From IMG/VR virus record IMGVR_UViG_3300050015_000743, positions 23,171-87,170 of that record: a stretch of 64,000 nucleotides of DNA, one strand, 5' to 3'. Source of the DNA: a virus. The position numbers and the translations under genes were made by a program. Of the stretch, positions 13,424 through 63,602 are shown piece after piece. Numbering within the stretch: position 1 is the first letter of the stretch; every line of letters starts with the position of its first letter. The notes beneath the pieces were generated by a model. The model was not told where the DNA came from, ran no database searches, and saw only the letters and a list, made by a program, of their open reading frames with translations.

Positions 13424-16400
13424 TTATTGAATTTCAAAACCTTTATACATTGAATTATATCTTGCTTTATCTGCTGCACTTTCACTACCCACACCTCTAC
13501 TAATATCACCTGCCGATAACATGCTTACGTTTGTTTCTTCAGAATCTCCACCGTCAAAGCCAATAAGTGTTGCTGGATTCATTACTCTTGGTACGGGGTA
13601 TCTTAATATTTTAGTACCACTAAAGCTCGTCATCATTCTATTTGGCTCAATTGTGTGTTCTACAGATAATATAATATACGCACCATTAAATAAAGGTACG
13701 TTTTCTAATTGAAAATATTGAGTCGGCTGAATCATAACATTACCCATACCATTAATTGTTGCCCTATATGCACGATTTTCATAAAGGTTATATAAGTTCT
13801 GACCTTTGGGTATTGGCGTAGTTCCTTTTGCGTCACCAGCCAGTCTTGCAAGAATCTGAATACTTTCGTTAGTTTCTGGATATTCCTTACTGTCAATTTT
13901 AATATCAGTGAACATTGATTGGTTTTGTTCACCAAACCTGACTCTGAATGCTCTTACTTGCCTCCAAGGGAAACCACCATAATTTGTTTCTTGTGATTGA
14001 TCTTCGGGACTTGCAGTTCCAGTATCTGGTTTTTTTGTTTGAAAATCACTTGGCATATTAGTTTCATTGCTTATGTCAGTGATACCATCGTCCTTAAAAT
14101 CATTATCCATTCCAGTAGGATAACTTGAAGTTCCACCAACAAACATACATACAAATGCTGCACTGTTTGTTGGAGTACCATTAACATCAATTTTAAATGA
14201 TTCTTCCCATGCCTGATCATTGTATGACATTAAGTTCTGTAATGGAAAAAATTCAAATCCATTTAATGATAATAATTGAGATAGTGCAGTAAAGACCGAA
14301 ATATTTGGGTCATCAAACATCTGTACAAGTGCTTCAGCGTTTATAATCGTATCACCAATTGGATTCATTGCTCTATCTACAAATGCAAATATATCAATTA
14401 AGTTTTTACCAGAAGGATTAAAAGGATATCCTTGAACATTCTTGACATTTGGATTACATAACCATTTATCATTGATATTTTTAAATGAATAGTATGTCTG
14501 TGTTACAATATCTTCATCACCTTTTCTTTTCTCATTGTCAGTATCGGCTTGTTTTAAATCGGTAGCCTTTGCATCAATTTGACTCAATAACGATGTAAAA
14601 AATTTCTTAAAATATATGTCGTTAATTGTTTTATTTGAAGAACTTGCATCGTTTAAACTTTTAATTGATTTATAACCCTTTTGTTCGGTGACTGGTTTAG
14701 TGAATGTTATTTCGCTAAAATTAATAATTTTTGAACCAGTAAGCATTGGCAATAATACGTTTGCAAAACTTTCTCCTGTGTTATCATCATTATTTGGATA
14801 TAAAAGGGATTTATATGCAGCAGCTTTTGCTTTTATATATGCATCATCGCTGTTGTATTGTCCACGAGTACCTACTTTGTCCTGTACTTGAGTGTATGTT
14901 GACTGTAAAGCTGATCTAATTTTAAGATATTGATCATTAAATGTGTTAAATGCTGATTTAAATTCGGCTTTATCGTTAGCTGATAATACATTTTCAATAT
15001 CTCCAATATCCGCAAATATAAAAAGTCCCGAACTTTCCAGATTCTTTCCAGAGCCGTTTGTGAAGAAATTTTTTAATTGGGTAGCTATTCCGTTAGTTTT
15101 TGCATCAATTAACGAACCCATGTATGCGGGTAGATATGATGGAACTTCAATTGCTGCAGGAATATTAAATAATAATCCATTTAAATTTTTTGGATATTTA
15201 TTGAATGGACTTGCAGTATATCCAAAGTTTGATAATAATATTATTGCACCCAATGGTGTGCTTTGATTAATAATGTCGGCATAAATTTCATTATCATGTT
15301 TTGAAAGTACATCAATCCAAACAGTAGGTACGCTTGCAAATGAACTACTACTTAATCTGCTGGCATTTGATGCAATTGAGCCATTAAATCCATTGTTGCT
15401 TAAGAAATATGAATTACCAGTCACTGCCAGTTGGTCAATTGTATTAATTCTATTAAGATTTCTACCACTACTATTTATTGTAACTTTAGCATTTAAAACA
15501 TCGTCAGCATTAAATACCTTAATTACCTCTGGTGTTACAAATCTTGTAATTAAACTCGTACCATTATATTTGGTCTGTACATCCAGTAGTTTTAATGTTG
15601 CGTCTGCTTCCATAGTGTCTTCAATGTACGGTACGTTTTCGGTTGTAAATTGAAACGAACTCTGTGGAATTGCATTGAAATTATTTTTAAAGAATCCTCT
15701 CCTTGTAGTTTCTTGAAATTTATCAATTGGGTCTTCTGAACCTTGTTGTGGGGTTCTAATATTTATTGTTTTACTTGGCGATAACACCATACCTTTATAT
15801 TGAGTAAATTCTTTATCAACGTAAACGTTATCACTTGTAGTTATCGGTATAGATTCTTTTGTTGGTGTGCCTGTACTTGGATTTATTTCAGGAAAATCAT
15901 AAAAGTCGCCATTAAGAGCAGTATTTTCAGATAAATATTTATAAAAAGCATCGGCAGTATTATGATCTTGTGCAAATTGTCTTAAATTTTGACCATATTT
16001 TGAATCAAATATTGATGCGGTTAGATTATATGCTTCTGCTTCAGCATATAAATTAGCATATGCAGCACTTATTTTGCCACCCTTATAAAAATTTGTTGGT
16101 AATGAGCTTTGTGTCAAAATATAAAACCTATTTAATACAATTTTAAGTACTTGATCTATTCTGTTGTCAGAACTTATATTAATTGGTTGACCGTTTACTC
16201 CACCACCAGTACTGGTGTCAACACCAATATATGGACTCTGTAAGTCTGTAGTTCCAAGTGTTGAATCAACTGGTGATATTGGTATCCATTTATTTACACC
16301 ATTTTCATTTTGATTGGCTCTCATGTTGCTGAGTTCAGTATAGTTTTGTTGGCTATTAAAACTATCAATAAAATCTTCCACTAATGAAATTTCTGGAAAA

Positions 16401-18151
16401 GGACGTGGTAATTTTCTGCTTAATTCAATTGGTGCTATTCTTACCTGTCTATAACCACCAGCAACTGGCTGTTGATTTTTTATTATTAATGGAAATGCAA
16501 ATATTTTATTATTGCTAACAGTAATACCATCACTACCGCTACCAGTATCTTTATAGCTACCATCATTAATTATTAATCTTTTATAATCATCAATATTATG
16601 ATGCCTGTTTTCCGCTTCGTCAGATGTATCTTTTATTTTTTTAAAAAACTTATCGACATCATCTAATATAATTTTAAAAATATTATATATTGATGGTCTG
16701 AGTCCAAGATTATCAAGTATTTTCTGATTGATCTTAGTGTTAATTGATTTACTAAGAGTAACTTTTTGTTTTGTTAAATCTGCTTTATTTTTATATAGCT
16801 TATTATAATAATCAGTAACGTCAATTCCAACATATTTGGTCGTGCTACTGGTGCTTGCAGCATTATTTGCAATATTATAGTTATTATCAAATACCTGTGG
16901 GTCTGAAATATCTGTAGTTAATACACTAATTCCATTATCGCTGGCTTTTTGAATAAGACTTGCCTTGAATGCTAATAATTGGCTACCCAATTCATTTATT
17001 AATGCTGCATTGGTTGTAGGCAGTGCTGGACTAATGTTCTGACCAACGATATATGAAATAAATAATCTTTTATTTGTATTTGCTTGTACTCCGCTTACTG
17101 CATTAAACTGAATTGCACTATCATATCCCAATAAAGTGCTTATTGGTGTTATGATTGCCTTTGCGTTATCGGCAGTTGGTTGATTACCTTTAAAGTTATA
17201 GTATGGCAGTGATGCAATTTGTTGCGATGTTGATGGTACTGTTTGCTGTTGTGCTGGTGCTACATCTTTAATTAACATATATGGTTGAGACTGTGCATTT
17301 GATAATTGACTATTAAAGCTGTCCAGTACTGTTATTGCATTATTGTTGTTGGCAATTTTAACAATTACAGCATCATATTCTTTTGTTTCTGTAGAATTCT
17401 TAATATCATCTGAAATTGCAGTATATAAATTCTTCAATTTCATTATTAATTCATATGTGTTGGTTGGTGCGGTATGTGCATCAGGATTAAGCGATATTTG
17501 TGCTGGTGGCATAAGCGGAAAATTAATAACATACCTTAATAATACATCGGTGAGTGGTGCAAATGTTACTGCCACAAATTGTGCGTCAATTATGAAGTTA
17601 CCGTTTTCTGCTTTAAATTCGGTTGTATATTTAACAAGGTGTAATTGATATGATAATGATTTGCCATAATATCCTTTTAATGTAAGATAAAAAATTGGCG
17701 GTGGAAAATCAAATAATATTCTATAAGGTGAGTTTGCACGATTAAAGAAAGCCAAACCTCTTATATCAACAAATTGAATATTGATTTGTGGTACAAATGA
17801 AGAATTGAGCACTACCTTGATACCACTCATACCAAAACCTTCATATTGAATATTATTACCATTACTACCATCATAATAATTTGTGGTAAAATTTAAGAAA
17901 TTTGGATTTTTATTATTTTCATCACCTTCAGTTTGATTTATTCCCATGAAATTAACCCTTGTAGTGCTTTCTAAGCCAGTTGCTTGGATACCATATTTTG
18001 CACTACCTTCTGTTGTAACCAATACACTTCTGCCTTTTCTTACACCATACAACTCTGCGAAAATGAACATATCTTCATATTTAGGTATGCCATTGACAAT
18101 TGTAGTATTGATGTTTACATCAAGTGGGTCAATAAGTTTCACATTACTCAT
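13424..18151 (-). CDS. Very large baseplate or tail structural protein
   Basis: A 1575-residue protein, rich in Asn, Thr and Ser with many short beta segments. A segment near residues 150-215 (FPPPIFYLTLKGYYGKSLSY) and a C-terminal one (PTQYFQLENVPLFNGAYII, then VEHTIEPNRMMTSFSGTKI) look like baseplate hub or tail-tube-fold elements. The latter resembles the ends of gp27- or gpD-like hub proteins. No signal peptide. The late promoter is immediately upstream and the transglycosylase gene immediately downstream. A structural role is fairly sure; the exact T4 counterpart is not. Confidence 0.65.
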   Translation of the reverse strand: MSNVKLIDPLDVNINTTIVNGIPKYEDMFIFAELYGVRKGRSVLVTTEGSAKYGIQATGLESTTRVNFMGINQTEGDENNKNPNFLNFTTNYYDGSNGNNIQYEGFGMSGIKVVLNSSFVPQINIQFVDIRGLAFFNRANSPYRILFDFPPPIFYLTLKGYYGKSLSYQLHLVKYTTEFKAENGNFIIDAQFVAVTFAPLTDVLLRYVINFPLMPPAQISLNPDAHTAPTNTYELIMKLKNLYTAISDDIKNSTETKEYDAVIVKIANNNNAITVLDSFNSQLSNAQSQPYMLIKDVAPAQQQTVPSTSQQIASLPYYNFKGNQPTADNAKAIITPISTLLGYDSAIQFNAVSGVQANTNKRLFISYIVGQNISPALPTTNAALINELGSQLLAFKASLIQKASDNGISVLTTDISDPQVFDNNYNIANNAASTSSTTKYVGIDVTDYYNKLYKNKADLTKQKVTLSKSINTKINQKILDNLGLRPSIYNIFKIILDDVDKFFKKIKDTSDEAENRHHNIDDYKRLIINDGSYKDTGSGSDGITVSNNKIFAFPLIIKNQQPVAGGYRQVRIAPIELSRKLPRPFPEISLVEDFIDSFNSQQNYTELSNMRANQNENGVNKWIPISPVDSTLGTTDLQSPYIGVDTSTGGGVNGQPINISSDNRIDQVLKIVLNRFYILTQSSLPTNFYKGGKISAAYANLYAEAEAYNLTASIFDSKYGQNLRQFAQDHNTADAFYKYLSENTALNGDFYDFPEINPSTGTPTKESIPITTSDNVYVDKEFTQYKGMVLSPSKTINIRTPQQGSEDPIDKFQETTRRGFFKNNFNAIPQSSFQFTTENVPYIEDTMEADATLKLLDVQTKYNGTSLITRFVTPEVIKVFNADDVLNAKVTINSSGRNLNRINTIDQLAVTGNSYFLSNNGFNGSIASNASRLSSSSFASVPTVWIDVLSKHDNEIYADIINQSTPLGAIILLSNFGYTASPFNKYPKNLNGLLFNIPAAIEVPSYLPAYMGSLIDAKTNGIATQLKNFFTNGSGKNLESSGLFIFADIGDIENVLSANDKAEFKSAFNTFNDQYLKIRSALQSTYTQVQDKVGTRGQYNSDDAYIKAKAAAYKSLLYPNNDDNTGESFANVLLPMLTGSKIINFSEITFTKPVTEQKGYKSIKSLNDASSSNKTINDIYFKKFFTSLLSQIDAKATDLKQADTDNEKRKGDEDIVTQTYYSFKNINDKWLCNPNVKNVQGYPFNPSGKNLIDIFAFVDRAMNPIGDTIINAEALVQMFDDPNISVFTALSQLLSLNGFEFFPLQNLMSYNDQAWEESFKIDVNGTPTNSAAFVCMFVGGTSSYPTGMDNDFKDDGITDISNETNMPSDFQTKKPDTGTASPEDQSQETNYGGFPWRQVRAFRVRFGEQNQSMFTDIKIDSKEYPETNESIQILARLAGDAKGTTPIPKGQNLYNLYENRAYRATINGMGNVMIQPTQYFQLENVPLFNGAYIILSVEHTIEPNRMMTSFSGTKILRYPVPRVMNPATLIGFDGGDSEETNVSMLSAGDISRGVGSESAADKARYNSMYKGFEIQ

Positions 18152-22561: not shown

Positions 22562-24241
22562 ATGGGATTTTTAATGGAAAGTGCGGAAGTTGGCAATATT
22601 GGATTAAAACAACTCCGTGAACAAAGAGAAATAACAACAAACCGTTGGGAAAAAATCGGTCTTCTTGAAGGTCTTGAAGGTAACGTAAAAGAGAATTGCG
22701 CACAGCTTTTCGAAAACCAGTTATCACACATGATCAACGAGTCTTCAGATTCAAGCAATAGCGGACAGTTCGAAACTGTTGCATTCCCTGTAATCCGTAG
22801 AGTATTTGCAAAATTACTTGCAAACGATATCGTGTCTGTACAAGCACTTAACTTACCTATTGGTAAATTGTACTATATTAACCCTAAAGCAAGCGTAAGA
22901 GTTGATCAATCACCTAATTTCAATCACACATCACCAGATGGTGCTTATGGAAACGCTGCTGAAAAAGCATTGAGCGCAAAAACTCAATTCGAAAGTCGTT
23001 CATTATACGATGCATTCTATGCAACTGAGTATGCTGAAGAAGGTACATCATTATTTGATCGCTCAAAAGGCGACATGATTGTTGTTACTGGTACAACTAC
23101 TGCATCTGCATGGGTTGTTGGTGTTGATAAATATGTTACCTTAACACTTGCTGGTTTCAGTATCACAAATGAAGGTAAATTAATCGGTCCTGCTGGTGTT
23201 CCTATGGATACTGAATCTTTCCTTGCTGGTTTGAGAATAACCGCAAGTGTTAAATTAGTAGCTCCTGCACCTTATGCAACTGACGGTTCAATTACTGCTG
23301 GACAGGCTATTCCTTTCAACGTTAAAGTTCAAAAATACGGACAGGCAATCGTTGACAAAACTGGAAAAATCGTTCTTATAGCTGACGTACAATATGCTGG
23401 AACTAATGGTTACAGTGCATTAAGCGCAACAACTGTATCAACTGGTATCACTTTCACTGCAACTTACAGAGTATACAGTGACCTTGAAGAAGATTCAAGA
23501 ATGGCTGAAGTAACTTTCGTACTTGACCAAGTAACAGTATCTGTAGAAACACGTAAAATGCGTGCTATGTGGACACCTGAACTTGCACAGGACGTTAGTG
23601 CATTCCACAACATTGACGCTGAAGCAGAGTTAACAGCTTTACTTTCAGAACAAATGGCTGCTGAAATTGACCGTGAAATTCTTCGTGACCTAAGACGTGG
23701 CGCAGCATGGACAGCAAGATGGGACTATAATGGTCTCCGTAAAGGAACTAACACTTACTACGGTGTTCAGAAAGACTGGAATCAAACATTGATCACAAAG
23801 ATCAACCAGATTTCAGCACAGATTCACAAAGCAACCTTAAGAGGTGGCGCATCATGGGTAGTAGTATCCCCAGAAGTTAGTGCAGTATTCGATGACCTTG
23901 AATATTTCCACGTATCTAACGCTGCTCCAGAGCAGGATAAATACAACATGGGTATTGAGAAAATTGGTACTCTTAGTGGACGTTATCAGGTATATCGTGA
24001 CCCATACGCACCAGCTAACACAGTATTAGTTGGACATAAAGGAACAAGTATCTTGGAAACAGGTTACATCTACGCTCCTTACGTACCAATGCAGTTAACC
24101 CCTGTAATGTATAACCCATTTGATTTCACACCAATCCGTGGTATCATGACACGTTATGCAAAGAAAATGGTACTTAACAGATACTATGGTAGAATCTTCT
24201 GCGATGGTCTTCAGACCTTCGGAATTGGTGACTTACAGTAA
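22562..24241 (+). CDS. Major capsid protein (gp23-like)
   Basis: A 559-residue HK97-fold capsid subunit; T4 gp23 is 521. The N-terminus TTNRWEKIGLLEGLEG followed by NCAQLFENQ aligns with the T4 gp23 N-terminal region (KW..LLEG, then IFENQ). Later segments match the family: MWTPELAQDVSAFHNIDAEA, then YAPYVPMQLTP and MTRYAKKMVLNRYYGR. Candidate protease sites of LxE form (LLE at 34-36, LFE at 49-51) lie in the N-terminal part. Codons are notably tidier and GC-richer than in neighbours, typical for a highly expressed gene. A terminator follows directly. Three small early proteins in this window resemble its first 85 residues. Confidence 0.96.
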   Translation: MGFLMESAEVGNIGLKQLREQREITTNRWEKIGLLEGLEGNVKENCAQLFENQLSHMINESSDSSNSGQFETVAFPVIRRVFAKLLANDIVSVQALNLPIGKLYYINPKASVRVDQSPNFNHTSPDGAYGNAAEKALSAKTQFESRSLYDAFYATEYAEEGTSLFDRSKGDMIVVTGTTTASAWVVGVDKYVTLTLAGFSITNEGKLIGPAGVPMDTESFLAGLRITASVKLVAPAPYATDGSITAGQAIPFNVKVQKYGQAIVDKTGKIVLIADVQYAGTNGYSALSATTVSTGITFTATYRVYSDLEEDSRMAEVTFVLDQVTVSVETRKMRAMWTPELAQDVSAFHNIDAEAELTALLSEQMAAEIDREILRDLRRGAAWTARWDYNGLRKGTNTYYGVQKDWNQTLITKINQISAQIHKATLRGGASWVVVSPEVSAVFDDLEYFHVSNAAPEQDKYNMGIEKIGTLSGRYQVYRDPYAPANTVLVGHKGTSILETGYIYAPYVPMQLTPVMYNPFDFTPIRGIMTRYAKKMVLNRYYGRIFCDGLQTFGIGDLQ

Positions 24242-48701: not shown

Positions 48702-49322
48702 ATGGCAAAAGGTACAAAGAAAACTGCAGTTAAAGCAGTGAATGAAGAATCATTAGTTGAAGAACCAATAATTGAAGCACAGGTAGAAGAAATAACTGAA
48801 GCAAGACCAGTTGACCCAGAGGTATTCGAAACAAAATTGTTTGTTGAAGAAGAACCAGAGGATGAAGCACAATTATTTGGTGAGGATGTAGTTCCACCAA
48901 ATGGTGAACCACTCGAAGAAGTTACTGAGTTAACTGAAAAGCTCGAAGATATTCAAACAAGGATTGAAGAGTTTCAAACAATTCAGGTAGAACCAGTAGT
49001 TGAAGAAGTTCCACCAGTTGCAGAAGATGGTGTTACAATGGGCGGTCTTGAATACGCTGAAGATTATCATCCAGACCCAAATGTTGAAAGAACACTGGTC
49101 GATAAAAGTTTTGAAGAACCAGAATCAATGTATACACTTACTCCTGAACAGGAAGAAGAAGGTGCACAAGTAATAGCAGATATGGTAAATGAACAAATTT
49201 TAAATGATGTAAGAGAAATGCAAAAATTGCCAGATGTTTTTCCAGTTGTTGAAAGAGCAAAAGAAAGTTATAGTAATAAAGATTTCAGACATTTTCAAAG
49301 AACTGGACAAATGCCAAAATAA
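48702..49322 (+). CDS. Acidic protein between sheath and tube genes
   Basis: A 206-residue, highly acidic protein (VEEPIIEAQVEEITEARPVD onward), probably disordered for its first 150 residues, with a basic C-terminal end (YSNKDFRHFQRTGQMPK) that could bind another structural protein. Own late promoter. Position between sheath and tube suggests a tail assembly or virion role; not recognised by family. Confidence 0.5.
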   Translation: MAKGTKKTAVKAVNEESLVEEPIIEAQVEEITEARPVDPEVFETKLFVEEEPEDEAQLFGEDVVPPNGEPLEEVTELTEKLEDIQTRIEEFQTIQVEPVVEEVPPVAEDGVTMGGLEYAEDYHPDPNVERTLVDKSFEEPESMYTLTPEQEEEGAQVIADMVNEQILNDVREMQKLPDVFPVVERAKESYSNKDFRHFQRTGQMPK

Positions 49323-59737: not shown

Positions 59738-59871
59738 ATTTCTACTTAATGTTTTACTTTAAATGACATTCTTTAATTTTTTGTTTTATTTGTACTTATA
59801 ATTTATGTTCTTATATATGCTTATACGCAAAAAAAAATATTATCTTGAATTTCTGCAAAAATTTTTTTCTT

Positions 59872-59881
59872 AGTATTTATT
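59872..59881 (+). promoter_or_regulatory. Late promoter motif AGTATTTATT
   Basis: AGTATTTATT, 34 bases before the ATG at 59916. Confidence 0.5.
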
Positions 59882-59915
59882 TATAAAATAATAATAAAAT
59901 ATAAATTTTTATAAA

Positions 59916-60839
59916 ATGGCAGAAGACACAAATGTTCCTCAAAGGGAAAGTATACGAGACATAGTAGGTAAGTATAAAGAATCACAGGCACACGCAGATG
60001 AATTTGCAAAATTAACTGGCGCAATTCCTTCACCTAATAAGCCAGCACCAGTATTTAACGCTGCTGCTGAACTTGATAATCCAATGAATAGGGAAACAGA
60101 CCCTGATCTTATGACTTCATATGAAATCGTTCAATTACCGTCAAGGGGTATGTTTTATCCAAGTCGTCTTGATAGGGTTGATGTTGAATATATGACCAGT
60201 AAAGATGAAGATTTATTAACCACACCTTCATTAATTGAAAGCGGAAACGTAATAAATATTCTCTTAAAAAGAAAAATTAAGACCAGAGGTGTTGTTGTTG
60301 AAGACCTTCTTGAAGGTGACAGAAACGCAATTATCTTATACTTACGTACTTCAAGTTATGGTTCAGATTATACCGTACAAGTTGCTGACCCAAGATCAGG
60401 TATACCTTTTAAAACTACAATTGATTTACTTCAGTTAAAATATAAAGAGCCTGTTGAAATGCCAGACGAAAATGGTCATTTTATTGTTGCTTTGCCAATG
60501 CGTAAGAAAAAAGTTGTATTCAGATTACTTACCTCTGGTGAAGATAATCTTTTATTTAAGAAAGCCGAAGCACTTAAAGATGCATTTAATCTTGAATTTA
60601 GTGAATATAGTACAATGAAAATTAAATCACATATTATCTCAATTGATGGTAATACTGATAGGTCGTACATTGACAGATTTGTTGATGCAATGCCAGCACT
60701 GGATTCATATACAATTCGTAGAAAAATTCAAACAGTTAGTCCTGATGTTGATATGTCTTATGAATTTATAACTAAAGACGGATATAAATTTTTTGCTACT
60801 TTAAGCGTGGGCACAGATTTTTTTTTCCCAAACACTTAG
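59916..60839 (+). CDS. gp26-like baseplate / tail-assembly chaperone protein
   Basis: A 307-residue protein. VQLPSRGMFYPSRLDRVDVE, YMTSKDEDLLTTPSLIESGN and LLEGDRNAIILYLRTSSYG match the T4 gp26 baseplate family signature (lPSrG.fY, yMTxkdEd, gDRnailxxxRxxsYG). Unlike some relatives it lacks a zinc ribbon after the YG motif. The last codons contain a nine-T run (60818-60826), and the downstream frame is open, so a -1 frameshift would replace the last residues with a gp51-like extension. It precedes the tape measure gene, where tail-assembly chaperones normally lie. Confidence 0.82.
   Translation: MAEDTNVPQRESIRDIVGKYKESQAHADEFAKLTGAIPSPNKPAPVFNAAAELDNPMNRETDPDLMTSYEIVQLPSRGMFYPSRLDRVDVEYMTSKDEDLLTTPSLIESGNVINILLKRKIKTRGVVVEDLLEGDRNAIILYLRTSSYGSDYTVQVADPRSGIPFKTTIDLLQLKYKEPVEMPDENGHFIVALPMRKKKVVFRLLTSGEDNLLFKKAEALKDAFNLEFSEYSTMKIKSHIISIDGNTDRSYIDRFVDAMPALDSYTIRRKIQTVSPDVDMSYEFITKDGYKFFATLSVGTDFFFPNT
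60818..60826 (+). promoter_or_regulatory. Candidate -1 ribosomal frameshift site (T9 slippery run)
   Basis: GAT TTT TTT TTC CCA in the gp26-like frame. After a -1 slip the message reads TTT CCC AAA CAC TTA GCA without a stop and stays open until 61036. The normal stop (TAG, 60837-60839) lies only 11 bases downstream. The predicted fusion is about 373 residues. Confidence 0.6.
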
Positions 60840-60856
60840 CAGGTGAGTATAAGAAG

Positions 60857-61036
60857 ATGGTCAATGAAGAGATATATGTCTTGACCAAACATGCTAAGTT
60901 TCAAGCAGAATATATCGAAAACCTACCAATATATCGTAGACGACATTTTCTGCATTTACTTCAAAAGGAAAACGAAGAAATCGAAAAAGCACAAGAAAAT
61001 GCAAAAATTAAAGGTAATACAAGACCAAGGCGATAA
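60857..61036 (+). CDS. gp51-like small protein, or C-terminal part of a frameshift fusion
   Basis: As a free gene it is 59 residues (MVNEEIYVLTKHAKFQAEYI onward). The core YIENLPIYRRRHFLHLLQKE has the pattern of the C-terminal, frameshift-expressed part of tail-assembly chaperones (xLPxxRRxxxxxxLxxE). The open frame extends upstream past the ATG to the T run of the gp26-like gene, with no stop. No independent promoter and only a modest leader. Its stop codon lies in the loop of a terminator hairpin. Confidence 0.65.
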   Translation: MVNEEIYVLTKHAKFQAEYIENLPIYRRRHFLHLLQKENEEIEKAQENAKIKGNTRPRR

Positions 61037-61051
61037 AAACCTTGGTCTTTT
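61021..61051 (+). terminator. Terminator overlapping the gp51-like stop codon
   Basis: A 10-base-pair stem (AAGACCAAGG / CCTTGGTCTT) and a short T run. The loop contains the TAA stop of the gp51-like frame at 61034-61036, so the last codons form the left arm. Confidence 0.75.
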
Positions 61052-61060
61052 GTATTTATG
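61051..61060 (+). promoter_or_regulatory. Late promoter motif TGTATTTATG variant
   Basis: TGTATTTATG begins at the end of the terminator T run, 19 bases before the tape measure ATG at 61080. Confidence 0.45.
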
Positions 61061-61079
61061 TATATAAATAAAAATTTAA

Positions 61080-63602
61080 ATGGCAGCAGACCCTAAAAAA
61101 AGTGTTAAAGATTTATTAGCCGATTATCAATTAACCGAAAAGACTCTTAATAAATTAACCTCTCTTGATTCTGAGCGTGCAAAGAATCAACAGATCATGG
61201 CAGAGAGGCAAAGAACTATTAATGAGCTTCTTTCAAGGGCAAATGAATTACAGGATGAGGATATAAAAAAATTAGATCAGCTTGTTGTAAAACAAAATGA
61301 AGCAGTTGCTGCTGAAAAGAAAATTAATGATCAGTTAGATAAGCAGAGAAAAAACAGACAAGAAGTTGTCAGTTTAGCCAAAGCACTTGCTGATTCAATT
61401 AAAGAGGGTTGGAAATATTTACAAGAATCTGATAAAGTAATTCGTAGTACCATTTTAAATCTTGGTATGTCTGGTGCAAAAGCGGAAGCTATGCGTAGGT
61501 CTTTTGAAGGCAGTGCAAAAATTGTAACAAGACTTGGTGGTAGTATTGCAGATATTCAAACAATTCAACAAGGTTTTGCTGATGAAACAGGTCGTGCACG
61601 TGCATTAACCGCAGGTATGGTTGAAGATATTACAATGATCGGTAAAGGTACTGGTCTGGGTATTGAACAAGCAACTAAACTCGGTGCACAATTTGAATTT
61701 ATGGGTTTGGATGCTAAAAGAAGCATGGACTATGTACAGGGCATTGTTGATACCAGTGAAAGAATGGGTGTTAATACTACAAAAGTATTAAAAAATGTTG
61801 GTGATAATTTTAAAGAATTAAATACATATAGTTTTACATCAGGTGTTAAAGGCATGGCTAAAATGGCTGAAGATGCTGAGAAATTTCAGGTTAGTATGGA
61901 TACTGCTCTTAGTGCAGCCGATGCAGCTAAAGGACTTGAAAAAGCTATTGATCTTGCTGCAAATTTGCAGGTTATGGGTGGCGAATTTGCAAAGACTGAC
62001 CCATTTGAATGGATGTATTTAGCTCGTAATGAACCAGAAAAACTTACACAGAAAATTTCTGAAATGACCAGAGGTCTGGTTACATTTAAAAAAAACAGTG
62101 AAGGCGTATTTGAAAAGTTTATAAGTCCTGCTGATCGTGATAGACTTTCTGCTGTTGCAAAATCTCTGGGTATATCAAATGAAGAAATGATAAAAATTAC
62201 CCAAAGACGTGCCGACTTGGATAAAATGAATAAAGAGTTGGGTGGTACTGGTTTAACTGCAAGAGAAAAAGAATTGGTTGAAGGTGCTGCTGTTTTTAAT
62301 AGTAAATCTGGAAAATTTCAGGTTGAACTTGCTGGAAGTATGAAAGATATTAGTAGTTTAACTGCAGAACAGGCAAAATCATTTGTAAAAGAACAGGCAA
62401 GTCTTAAAAGTCGTGCTGAACAAGCATTGACCTTTGATCAAACATTTAAAGCAACAATAGAAACACTTAAAGCATCATTATTGCCTTTATTAAAGGGTGT
62501 AAATATGGCACTTAAACCACTTGCAGCACTTGCAGACCTTGCAAGTAAAGGTGGTTGGGGTGTAGCTGGTGCAGCAGGAATTTTAATAACTGCTGGTTTA
62601 CTTTGGAAGGGTGTTACAAATAAATTAAGTAATGTTGTATCAGAATGGGTTCAAAAAAGTGGTGGAAAAGGTATATCAGGTTTTATAGGAAGAACAGGTG
62701 CAGGTACTGCTGCAGGTCAAGCAGAATCAACTATTGCTGAAAAAGGTACAAAAGGTCTTAGTGGTTTAGCTGAACAACGTAGAGGTATTGGTCAAGGTGC
62801 TGCAATGGCAGGTAAAGGTTCTATGATGATGAAAGGTGGTGCTGGTATTGGTGCTGCTGCTCTGGGTATCGGTGCAGGTATTGGATTGGCTGCAATTGGT
62901 ATTAGTAAACTTGCTGACTCAATGAGTAAATTAGATAAAACACAAATATGGGCATTACCTGTAACTGTATTGGCTTTAGCTGGTGCATTTGCTGTATTTG
63001 CTCCTGCAATTATTGCTGTTGGTACTGCTGGTACTGTTAGTGCTGTTGGCTTATTAGCTTTAGGCGGTGCTGTTCTGGGTATAGGTGCAGGTATTGGACT
63101 TGCTGCTGCTGGTATTGGTTACATGGCTAAAGGTATTGGTGAAATGGCTACATCAGCTAAAGGTGCAGGTGCTGACATGTTACAATTAGGTGAAGGTATT
63201 GCAGTTATGGCTGCTGGTATGGCTTTATTTTCTGCTGGTGGTCTGGGCTTAGTAGTATTTGCAACAACACTCAATAGAATTGCAAAACATGCTGATGATC
63301 TTGGTAAGGTTGGTGATGCATTCAGAGAAATTAATGCAGTTATGCGTGGAAGTAAGGATGATTTCAAAGCAGTTGAAGATGCAGTCAATGCTATTTCAAC
63401 AATGAATACTAAAGGTGGTTCAACTTTTGCTCAATTAGCTAATTTGCTCAGTAAACCTCTTAAGGTTGAATTCGATAATAAAGGCGCAGTACAGCTTAGA
63501 GCAGATATTACATTAGATATTGATAGTAATACATTTATGCGTAAAGTATTTAAAGAAAAAGTTGCTGTAGTAATGACTGAGGATGCACGTATTAATAAAT
63601 AA
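61080..63602 (+). CDS. Tail tape measure protein
   Basis: An 840-residue protein. The N-terminal 130 residues form a coiled coil (SLDSERAKNQQIMAERQRTI). The middle is helical. Residues about 480-780 contain several Gly/Ala-rich hydrophobic segments (GAGIGAAALGIGAGIGLAAI) typical of tape measure proteins that insert into the host membrane. It follows the chaperone-like pair as in many tailed phages and corresponds in position to T4 gp29. It sets tail length and is ejected with DNA in related systems. Confidence 0.82.
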   Translation: MAADPKKSVKDLLADYQLTEKTLNKLTSLDSERAKNQQIMAERQRTINELLSRANELQDEDIKKLDQLVVKQNEAVAAEKKINDQLDKQRKNRQEVVSLAKALADSIKEGWKYLQESDKVIRSTILNLGMSGAKAEAMRRSFEGSAKIVTRLGGSIADIQTIQQGFADETGRARALTAGMVEDITMIGKGTGLGIEQATKLGAQFEFMGLDAKRSMDYVQGIVDTSERMGVNTTKVLKNVGDNFKELNTYSFTSGVKGMAKMAEDAEKFQVSMDTALSAADAAKGLEKAIDLAANLQVMGGEFAKTDPFEWMYLARNEPEKLTQKISEMTRGLVTFKKNSEGVFEKFISPADRDRLSAVAKSLGISNEEMIKITQRRADLDKMNKELGGTGLTAREKELVEGAAVFNSKSGKFQVELAGSMKDISSLTAEQAKSFVKEQASLKSRAEQALTFDQTFKATIETLKASLLPLLKGVNMALKPLAALADLASKGGWGVAGAAGILITAGLLWKGVTNKLSNVVSEWVQKSGGKGISGFIGRTGAGTAAGQAESTIAEKGTKGLSGLAEQRRGIGQGAAMAGKGSMMMKGGAGIGAAALGIGAGIGLAAIGISKLADSMSKLDKTQIWALPVTVLALAGAFAVFAPAIIAVGTAGTVSAVGLLALGGAVLGIGAGIGLAAAGIGYMAKGIGEMATSAKGAGADMLQLGEGIAVMAAGMALFSAGGLGLVVFATTLNRIAKHADDLGKVGDAFREINAVMRGSKDDFKAVEDAVNAISTMNTKGGSTFAQLANLLSKPLKVEFDNKGAVQLRADITLDIDSNTFMRKVFKEKVAVVMTEDARINK

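Follow-up and report, generated by a model that had tools for sequence, protein, structure and literature searches.

The window analysed here is a stretch of 64,000 nucleotides (positions 23,171 to 87,170) of the viral IMG/VR record IMGVR_UViG_3300050015_000743. The 87,170-base record carries a T4-like gene set, including the large terminase, portal, head protease, major head protein and tail sheath. The set is otherwise T4-like, but a 1575 aa ORF on the minus strand (window 13424-18151) has no PHROG match at E 0.001. The locus of interest comprises two overlapping ORFs and a third ORF downstream, with the following features.

59916-60839, plus strand: gp26-like ORF of 307 aa, the putative short chaperone form (TAC-N), assigned by PF12322, phrog_150 and fold matches
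60818-60826, plus strand: T9 slippery run, T8-T9 in the same phase in 68/68 distinct relatives
60818-60824, plus strand: U_UUU_UUU heptamer, inside the T9 run
60821-60827, plus strand: U_UUU_UUC heptamer, made of T from the run and the next C
60837-60839, plus strand: zero-frame stop TAG, end of the short form, formed within the -1 frame codons TTA GCA
60827-61036, plus strand: gp51-like tail in the -1 frame, 69 codons and a stop, assigned by phrog_634 and pN/pS; predicted fused product of ∼373 aa (TAC-NC)
60857-60859, plus strand: ATG within the -1 frame, the sole candidate for separate gp51-like initiation, ATG in 60/68 relatives
60833-60900, plus strand: possible stimulatory stem, CACTTAGC (60833-60840) with GCTAAGTT (60893-60900), provisional, from predicted folds
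61021-61049, plus strand: terminator-like hairpin AAGACCAAGG / CCTTGGTCTT past the gp51-like stop, seen in the sequence, with similar hairpins in relatives
61080-63602, plus strand: tape-measure-like ORF of 840 aa, from position, size, hydrophobic repeats and a weak BLASTP match

As read from the sequence, the gp26-like ORF ends in GAT TTT TTT TTC CCA AAC ACT TAG, which contains the run of nine T described in the original prediction, and from the run onwards the -1 frame reads TTT TTT TTT CCC AAA CAC TTA GCA GGT GAG TAT AAG AAG ATG. A slip of -1 had been expected to open about 70 codons; the frame is open for 69 codons 3′ of the run, up to the stop at 61034-61036, and the C-terminal motif LPIYRRRHFLHLL noted earlier is present in this extension. 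Both possible slip positions lead to an identical junction, ...DFFFPKHLAGEYK, and the predicted tryptic peptide across the gp26/gp51-like fusion is FFATLSVGTDFFFPK, which corrects the junction peptide beginning at FFF that had been proposed. Among the 67 ATG ORFs of at least 100 aa surveyed in the window, only the gp26-like ORF has an in-phase heptamer near its 3′ end together with a long -1 extension. The tape-measure-like ORF begins 43 bases past the gp51-like stop, and the two overlapping ORFs therefore lie directly 5′ of the tape measure gene, in the lambda G/GT-like placement that had been recognized from the sequence.

The first ORF belongs to the T4 gp26 family, matching PF12322 (T4_baseplate, E 1.6e-7, above the curated cut-off) and phrog_150 (baseplate hub, E 6.3e-8). 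The window extension alone gives a weak match to phrog_634, the gp51 family (E 0.06), and phrog_634 is found at the homologous position in relatives with E values of 3e-20 for KVP40 and 2e-27 for S-PM2. Direct hhalign comparison of the clade alignment with the single T4 gp26 and gp51 sequences gave no match, and the homology of the window proteins to those of T4 rests on the Pfam and PHROG profiles and on a chain of intermediates.

Two AlphaFold models, one for the window protein (pLDDT 85.8) and one for an immuto-type protein (90.5), were compared with known structures. With Foldseek, the first match of the window model among 350,542 PDB chains was the HK97 tail assembly chaperone (probability 0.69). 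VIA-align placed YqbN (Z 6.2 and 5.8) and the HK97 chaperone (Z 5.7 and 4.6) at the top for the two models, followed by ORF19 of a Vibrio PICI-like element, with unrelated chains at Z of 3.8 or lower; all values are below 8, and since they are modest the fold is taken as supportive evidence only. The models are consistent with a chaperone-like fold for the gp26-like product. YqbN fits residues 184-277 of the window model and the HK97 chaperone residues 54-148, which suggests two tandem chaperone-like units in one predicted gp26 protein (window 59916-60836); a search for internal duplication of gp26 by sequence yielded nothing beyond a 20-column match (E 0.03).

The 840 aa tape-measure-like ORF matches no family in Pfam or PHROG, and its BLASTP match to the protein annotated as tape measure in Flavobacterium phage immuto has an E value of 7e-4. 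The gene order tube, gp26, gp51, tape measure is seen in related Flavobacterium, Microcystis, Listeria and Bacillus phages and in cyanophages. In the window, ∼10 kb of other genes separate the probable, unclassified tube gene (48702-49322) from gp26.

From two IMG/VR scans we obtained 154 usable loci, of which 68 are distinct over the junction; these relatives are mostly 47-68% identical to the window protein and lie on contigs of up to 366 kb. The comparison of run and frame phase that had been suggested as a check yields a uniform picture, with T9 in 58 and T8 in 10 of the 68 loci, all in phase, a zero-frame stop 10-13 nt 3′ of the run in every relative and a -1 ORF of 61-75 codons in the 66 complete loci. 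Most loci (58/68) have the site GAT TTT TTT TTC CCN. Four have GAT TTT TTT TC(C/T) CC, in which U_UUU_UUU is kept while Phe becomes Ser, and in the other six the T8 run starts only at the next codon and U_UUU_UUC remains. Loci with GAT thus keep the first heptamer and those with GAC the second, so that at least one perfect zero-frame heptamer of the X_XXY_YYZ type is retained in all 68 despite variation in the zero-frame peptide. The C closing the third Phe codon is invariant in the TTC loci, where it is also the first base of the Pro codon in the -1 frame, and TTC accounts for 18% (142/779) of Phe codons elsewhere in the same genes.

This conservation bears on whether the split frame could be an artefact. 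Homopolymers are prone to sequencing error, and an assembly or homopolymer error splitting one gene, or a chance open frame, would give a similar appearance, although none of our results points to such an error. The run, stop and phase are, however, kept in 68 distinct loci from many metagenomes, and isolate genomes of other clades share the junction organisation. We therefore reject an assembly or sequencing error, and likewise a chance ORF, given that a single ORF of the 67 in the window has such a heptamer and extension and that these are conserved in 68 loci; together the probability of these explanations is negligible.

The gp51-like part could alternatively be made with no frameshift, as a separate small protein initiated at the ATG at 60857 and perhaps coupled to the upstream stop. 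ATG is found at this position in 60/68 loci, and in some phages, Cygsa01 among them, the junction is a TAATG overlap. Between the zero-frame stop and the ATG lie six -1 codons, mostly A-G-E-Y-K-K, that vary at third positions. Their pN/pS is 0.24 in the -1 frame (bootstrap 0.16-0.33), compared with 3.6 and 1.3 for the two alternative frames, and is equal to that of the body of the -1 ORF after the ATG (0.23). This stretch would be untranslated if the gp51-like part were a separate gene, so purifying selection on these six -1 codons argues that translation runs across the junction. In addition, from the upstream stop to the ATG position the -1 frame contains no ATG, GTG or TTG in any of the 68 loci; ATG is absent from that position in 8/68 loci, and in three of the relatives (L055, L057 and L163) ATG, GTG or TTG occurs only very late in the -1 ORF or not at all, leaving no usable start there. 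In T4, gp51 keeps both parts covalently joined. An independent start combined with the lack of a conserved run or overlap in relatives, the outcome that would have spoken against the original prediction, was looked for and the opposite was found. An independent gp51 start as the sole source of the product is therefore rejected and considered highly improbable, slightly less so than an artefact. The internal ATG is preceded in most loci by a weak GGTGAG ∼9 nt upstream, and a certain amount of free gp51-like fragment may accompany the fused protein.

The short product is also maintained. In all 66 loci compared, the Leu codon that overlaps the stop in the -1 frame is TTA or CTA, and a purine comes next; such codons account for only 63% of Leu in the ORF body. 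The zero-frame TAG or TAA, and hence the short product, is preserved by this choice. These Leu counts, and the Phe counts above, are naive in that they ignore relatedness, and the pattern holds across strongly diverged sequences. At the level of sequence, both the short and the fused products are conserved in the clade, and the comparison establishes joint coding of the gp26-like and gp51-like parts with translation across the junction: the in-phase slip site is conserved, and selection acts on the extension as on a prolongation of the first ORF. The predicted -1 frameshift fusing the two parts is thus strongly supported by the comparison of the 68 relatives.

The same change of frame could arise by transcriptional slippage, in which RNA polymerase inserts an extra base at the T9 run and the altered mRNA is then translated normally into the -1 frame, with the same protein outcome. 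Nine or more A/T lie in the range of known polymerase slippage, and because the run is T9, as it is in 58/68 loci, this is the main rival to a ribosomal slip. The remaining 10 loci, however, have only T8, and at the homologous sites of cyanophages and KVP40-like phages there are no more than six or seven T, with the heptamer phase unchanged. At cyanophage-type loci, TTTTTTC is found in -1 phase at the gp26 end in 75/75 distinct cases, and GAT TTT TTC with a -1 extension occurs in KVP40, K567, Ah1, Ci1, BUCT608 and Bakedbeans; no IMG/VR relatives of the Vibrio phage Bakedbeans gp26 were found. Sister clades with a +1 site, moreover, have a broken T run (CTT TGG, CTA TGG). Ribosomal slippage is accordingly favoured, and transcriptional slippage is regarded as unlikely.

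A gp51-like tail in the +1 frame is observed for Flavobacterium phage immuto, Microcystis phage Mel-JY01, Streptococcus phage GXN1, Listeria phage LIS04, Bacillus phage SP-15 and the uncultured LR756508. A third scan yielded 62 distinct loci of a sister clade resembling immuto, in which the site is TTT-(TTT/CTT/CTA)-TGG-CCT, with TGG once replaced by TAC. Past the stop, pN/pS in the +1 frame is 0.21 in this clade, indicating that here too translation proceeds across the junction. The public annotation of immuto contains only a 36 aa fragment of the extension, and translation of one immuto-type gp26 match (L239:3001-3729) across its matched range meets an in-frame stop. In Synechococcus phage S-SCSM1 (L248, 4671-4874) the gp51 ORF is +1 relative to gp26, whereas the other cyanophage-type loci examined are -1; this is possibly a sequencing indel. 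The junction of Cygsa01 has its TAATG without a clear heptamer. KVP40 and K567 also carry TAATG, so coupling may compete with slipping there.

T4 itself differs from the window locus in having two separate genes rather than one frameshifted pair. Genes 26 and 51 of T4 are divergently transcribed neighbours, which implies that T4 does not use the frameshift. Its gp51 matches PF12322 over residues 1-201 (E 4e-52) and phrog_634 over residues 147-246 (E 1e-23), and this combination of a gp26-family domain, as in the window, with a gp51 tail identifies it as a pre-fused long form with its own gene. On the gp26 tree the direction label needs three changes, the +1 group requiring at least two as judged from supported branches; the tree has long branches and its deep order is uncertain. 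It is likely that the frameshift changed direction, between -1 and +1, on more than one occasion at a single homologous set of codons (DFFFP / SFLWP), that the fused product was kept throughout, and that in T4 the frameshift was replaced by a duplicated pre-fused gene. The data show T4 gp51 to be the fused form converted to a gene of its own, and related phages to reach the fused protein by a -1 or a +1 change.

Taken together, the locus is very probably a T4-like tail assembly chaperone gene pair, similar to lambda G/GT, expressed through a -1 ribosomal slip on the T9 run. The frame change and the homology to T4 gp26 and gp51 are established by comparison of sequences; we infer the ribosomal nature of the slip, its efficiency and the protein contacts. 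Most ribosomes would end at the TAG at 60837 and release the 307 aa gp26-like short form. On a minority, two Phe tRNAs positioned on U_UUU_UUU or U_UUU_UUC (60818-60827) would slip back by one base, and these ribosomes would bypass the stop and add the 69-residue gp51-like tail to give the long form of ∼373 aa. By analogy with lambda, many short and few long forms may coat the tape measure protein encoded by the neighbouring gene, and the tail of the long form may recruit tail tube subunits.

The lambda G/GT tail assembly chaperone was described by Levin 1993 and Xu 2004 and is reviewed in PMC5009743, a 2016 review in which G/GT frameshifting is considered widely conserved, with T4 as the exception. 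The slip site in lambda is GGGAAAG, in contrast to the T run of the window locus, and the gp26 family is larger, with two chaperone-like units in the model. To our knowledge there is no sequence similarity between lambda G/GT and the gp26 family. In a 2010 review (PMC3004832), T4 gp26 and gp51 are hub assembly chaperones and gp51 is absent from the particle. The suggestion that gp26 and gp51 are the T4-lineage version of the tail chaperone agrees with the fold, the gene position and the composition of T4 gp51, but it is not new: it is already published by Vladimirov, Gautam and Davidson (2022, Virology 566:9-15), as cited in PMC10885494 and PMC12846349. The title of that work proposes a mechanism other than frameshifting; according to the PRFect summary (PMC10885494) some T4-like phages possess a short gene alongside a long, fused one, and according to PMC12846349 it describes poly-T slip signals in T4-like TAC-N genes. 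As represented in these sources, its chaperones share with the window both the gene family and the poly-T slip signal in TAC-N. The chaperone genes of Vandenendeviridae and Andersonviridae, other phage families with a GTTTTT site (PMC12846349), likewise use -1 on a T run with an extension always open past the stop.

In the searchable literature, which did not extend to the full text of Vladimirov et al., there was no account of the uncultured clade, of a formal selection test or of the direction switch. Our results add this new clade and comparative evidence for translation across the junction, together with the conservation of U_UUU_UUC among cyanophages and KVP40-like phages, and a sister clade that uses +1 at the same codons. 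A conserved slip site is thereby seen in much of the wider T4 lineage, comprising cyanophages, KVP40-like phages and large uncultured phages. They also call for a correction of annotation, as several records truncate the gp51-like ORF, label it hypothetical or overlook it.

Predicted RNA folds point to a possible stimulatory stem 6-9 nt downstream of the heptamers. The fold z of the window in this region is -2.8, and over 62 loci the 80 nt 3′ of the run have a mean z of -2.09 relative to shuffles, compared with 0.05 for an upstream control. The CACTTAGC/GCTAAGTT stem is present in the predicted fold of 37/62 loci, 6-9 nt past the heptamers; RNAalifold gave no consensus structure for 27 aligned sequences, and covariation of the candidate stem was not beyond that of shuffles. 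In most of the relatives inspected, a hairpin resembling that at 61021-61049 occupies the corresponding position. The simple scan did not score this hairpin as a terminator, and the promoter and terminator scan gave nothing above shuffles.

The 8-mer TATTTATA, often (T/A)AGTATTTATA or TTTGTATTTAT, is about twice as frequent in the window as in shuffles. Its 26 window sites include 59870-59885 and 61049-61070; 15 of them lie 12-59 nt 5′ of a same-strand ORF start (5 in reverse orientation). The 8-mer looks like a phage promoter, adjoining the conserved hairpin before the tape measure gene.
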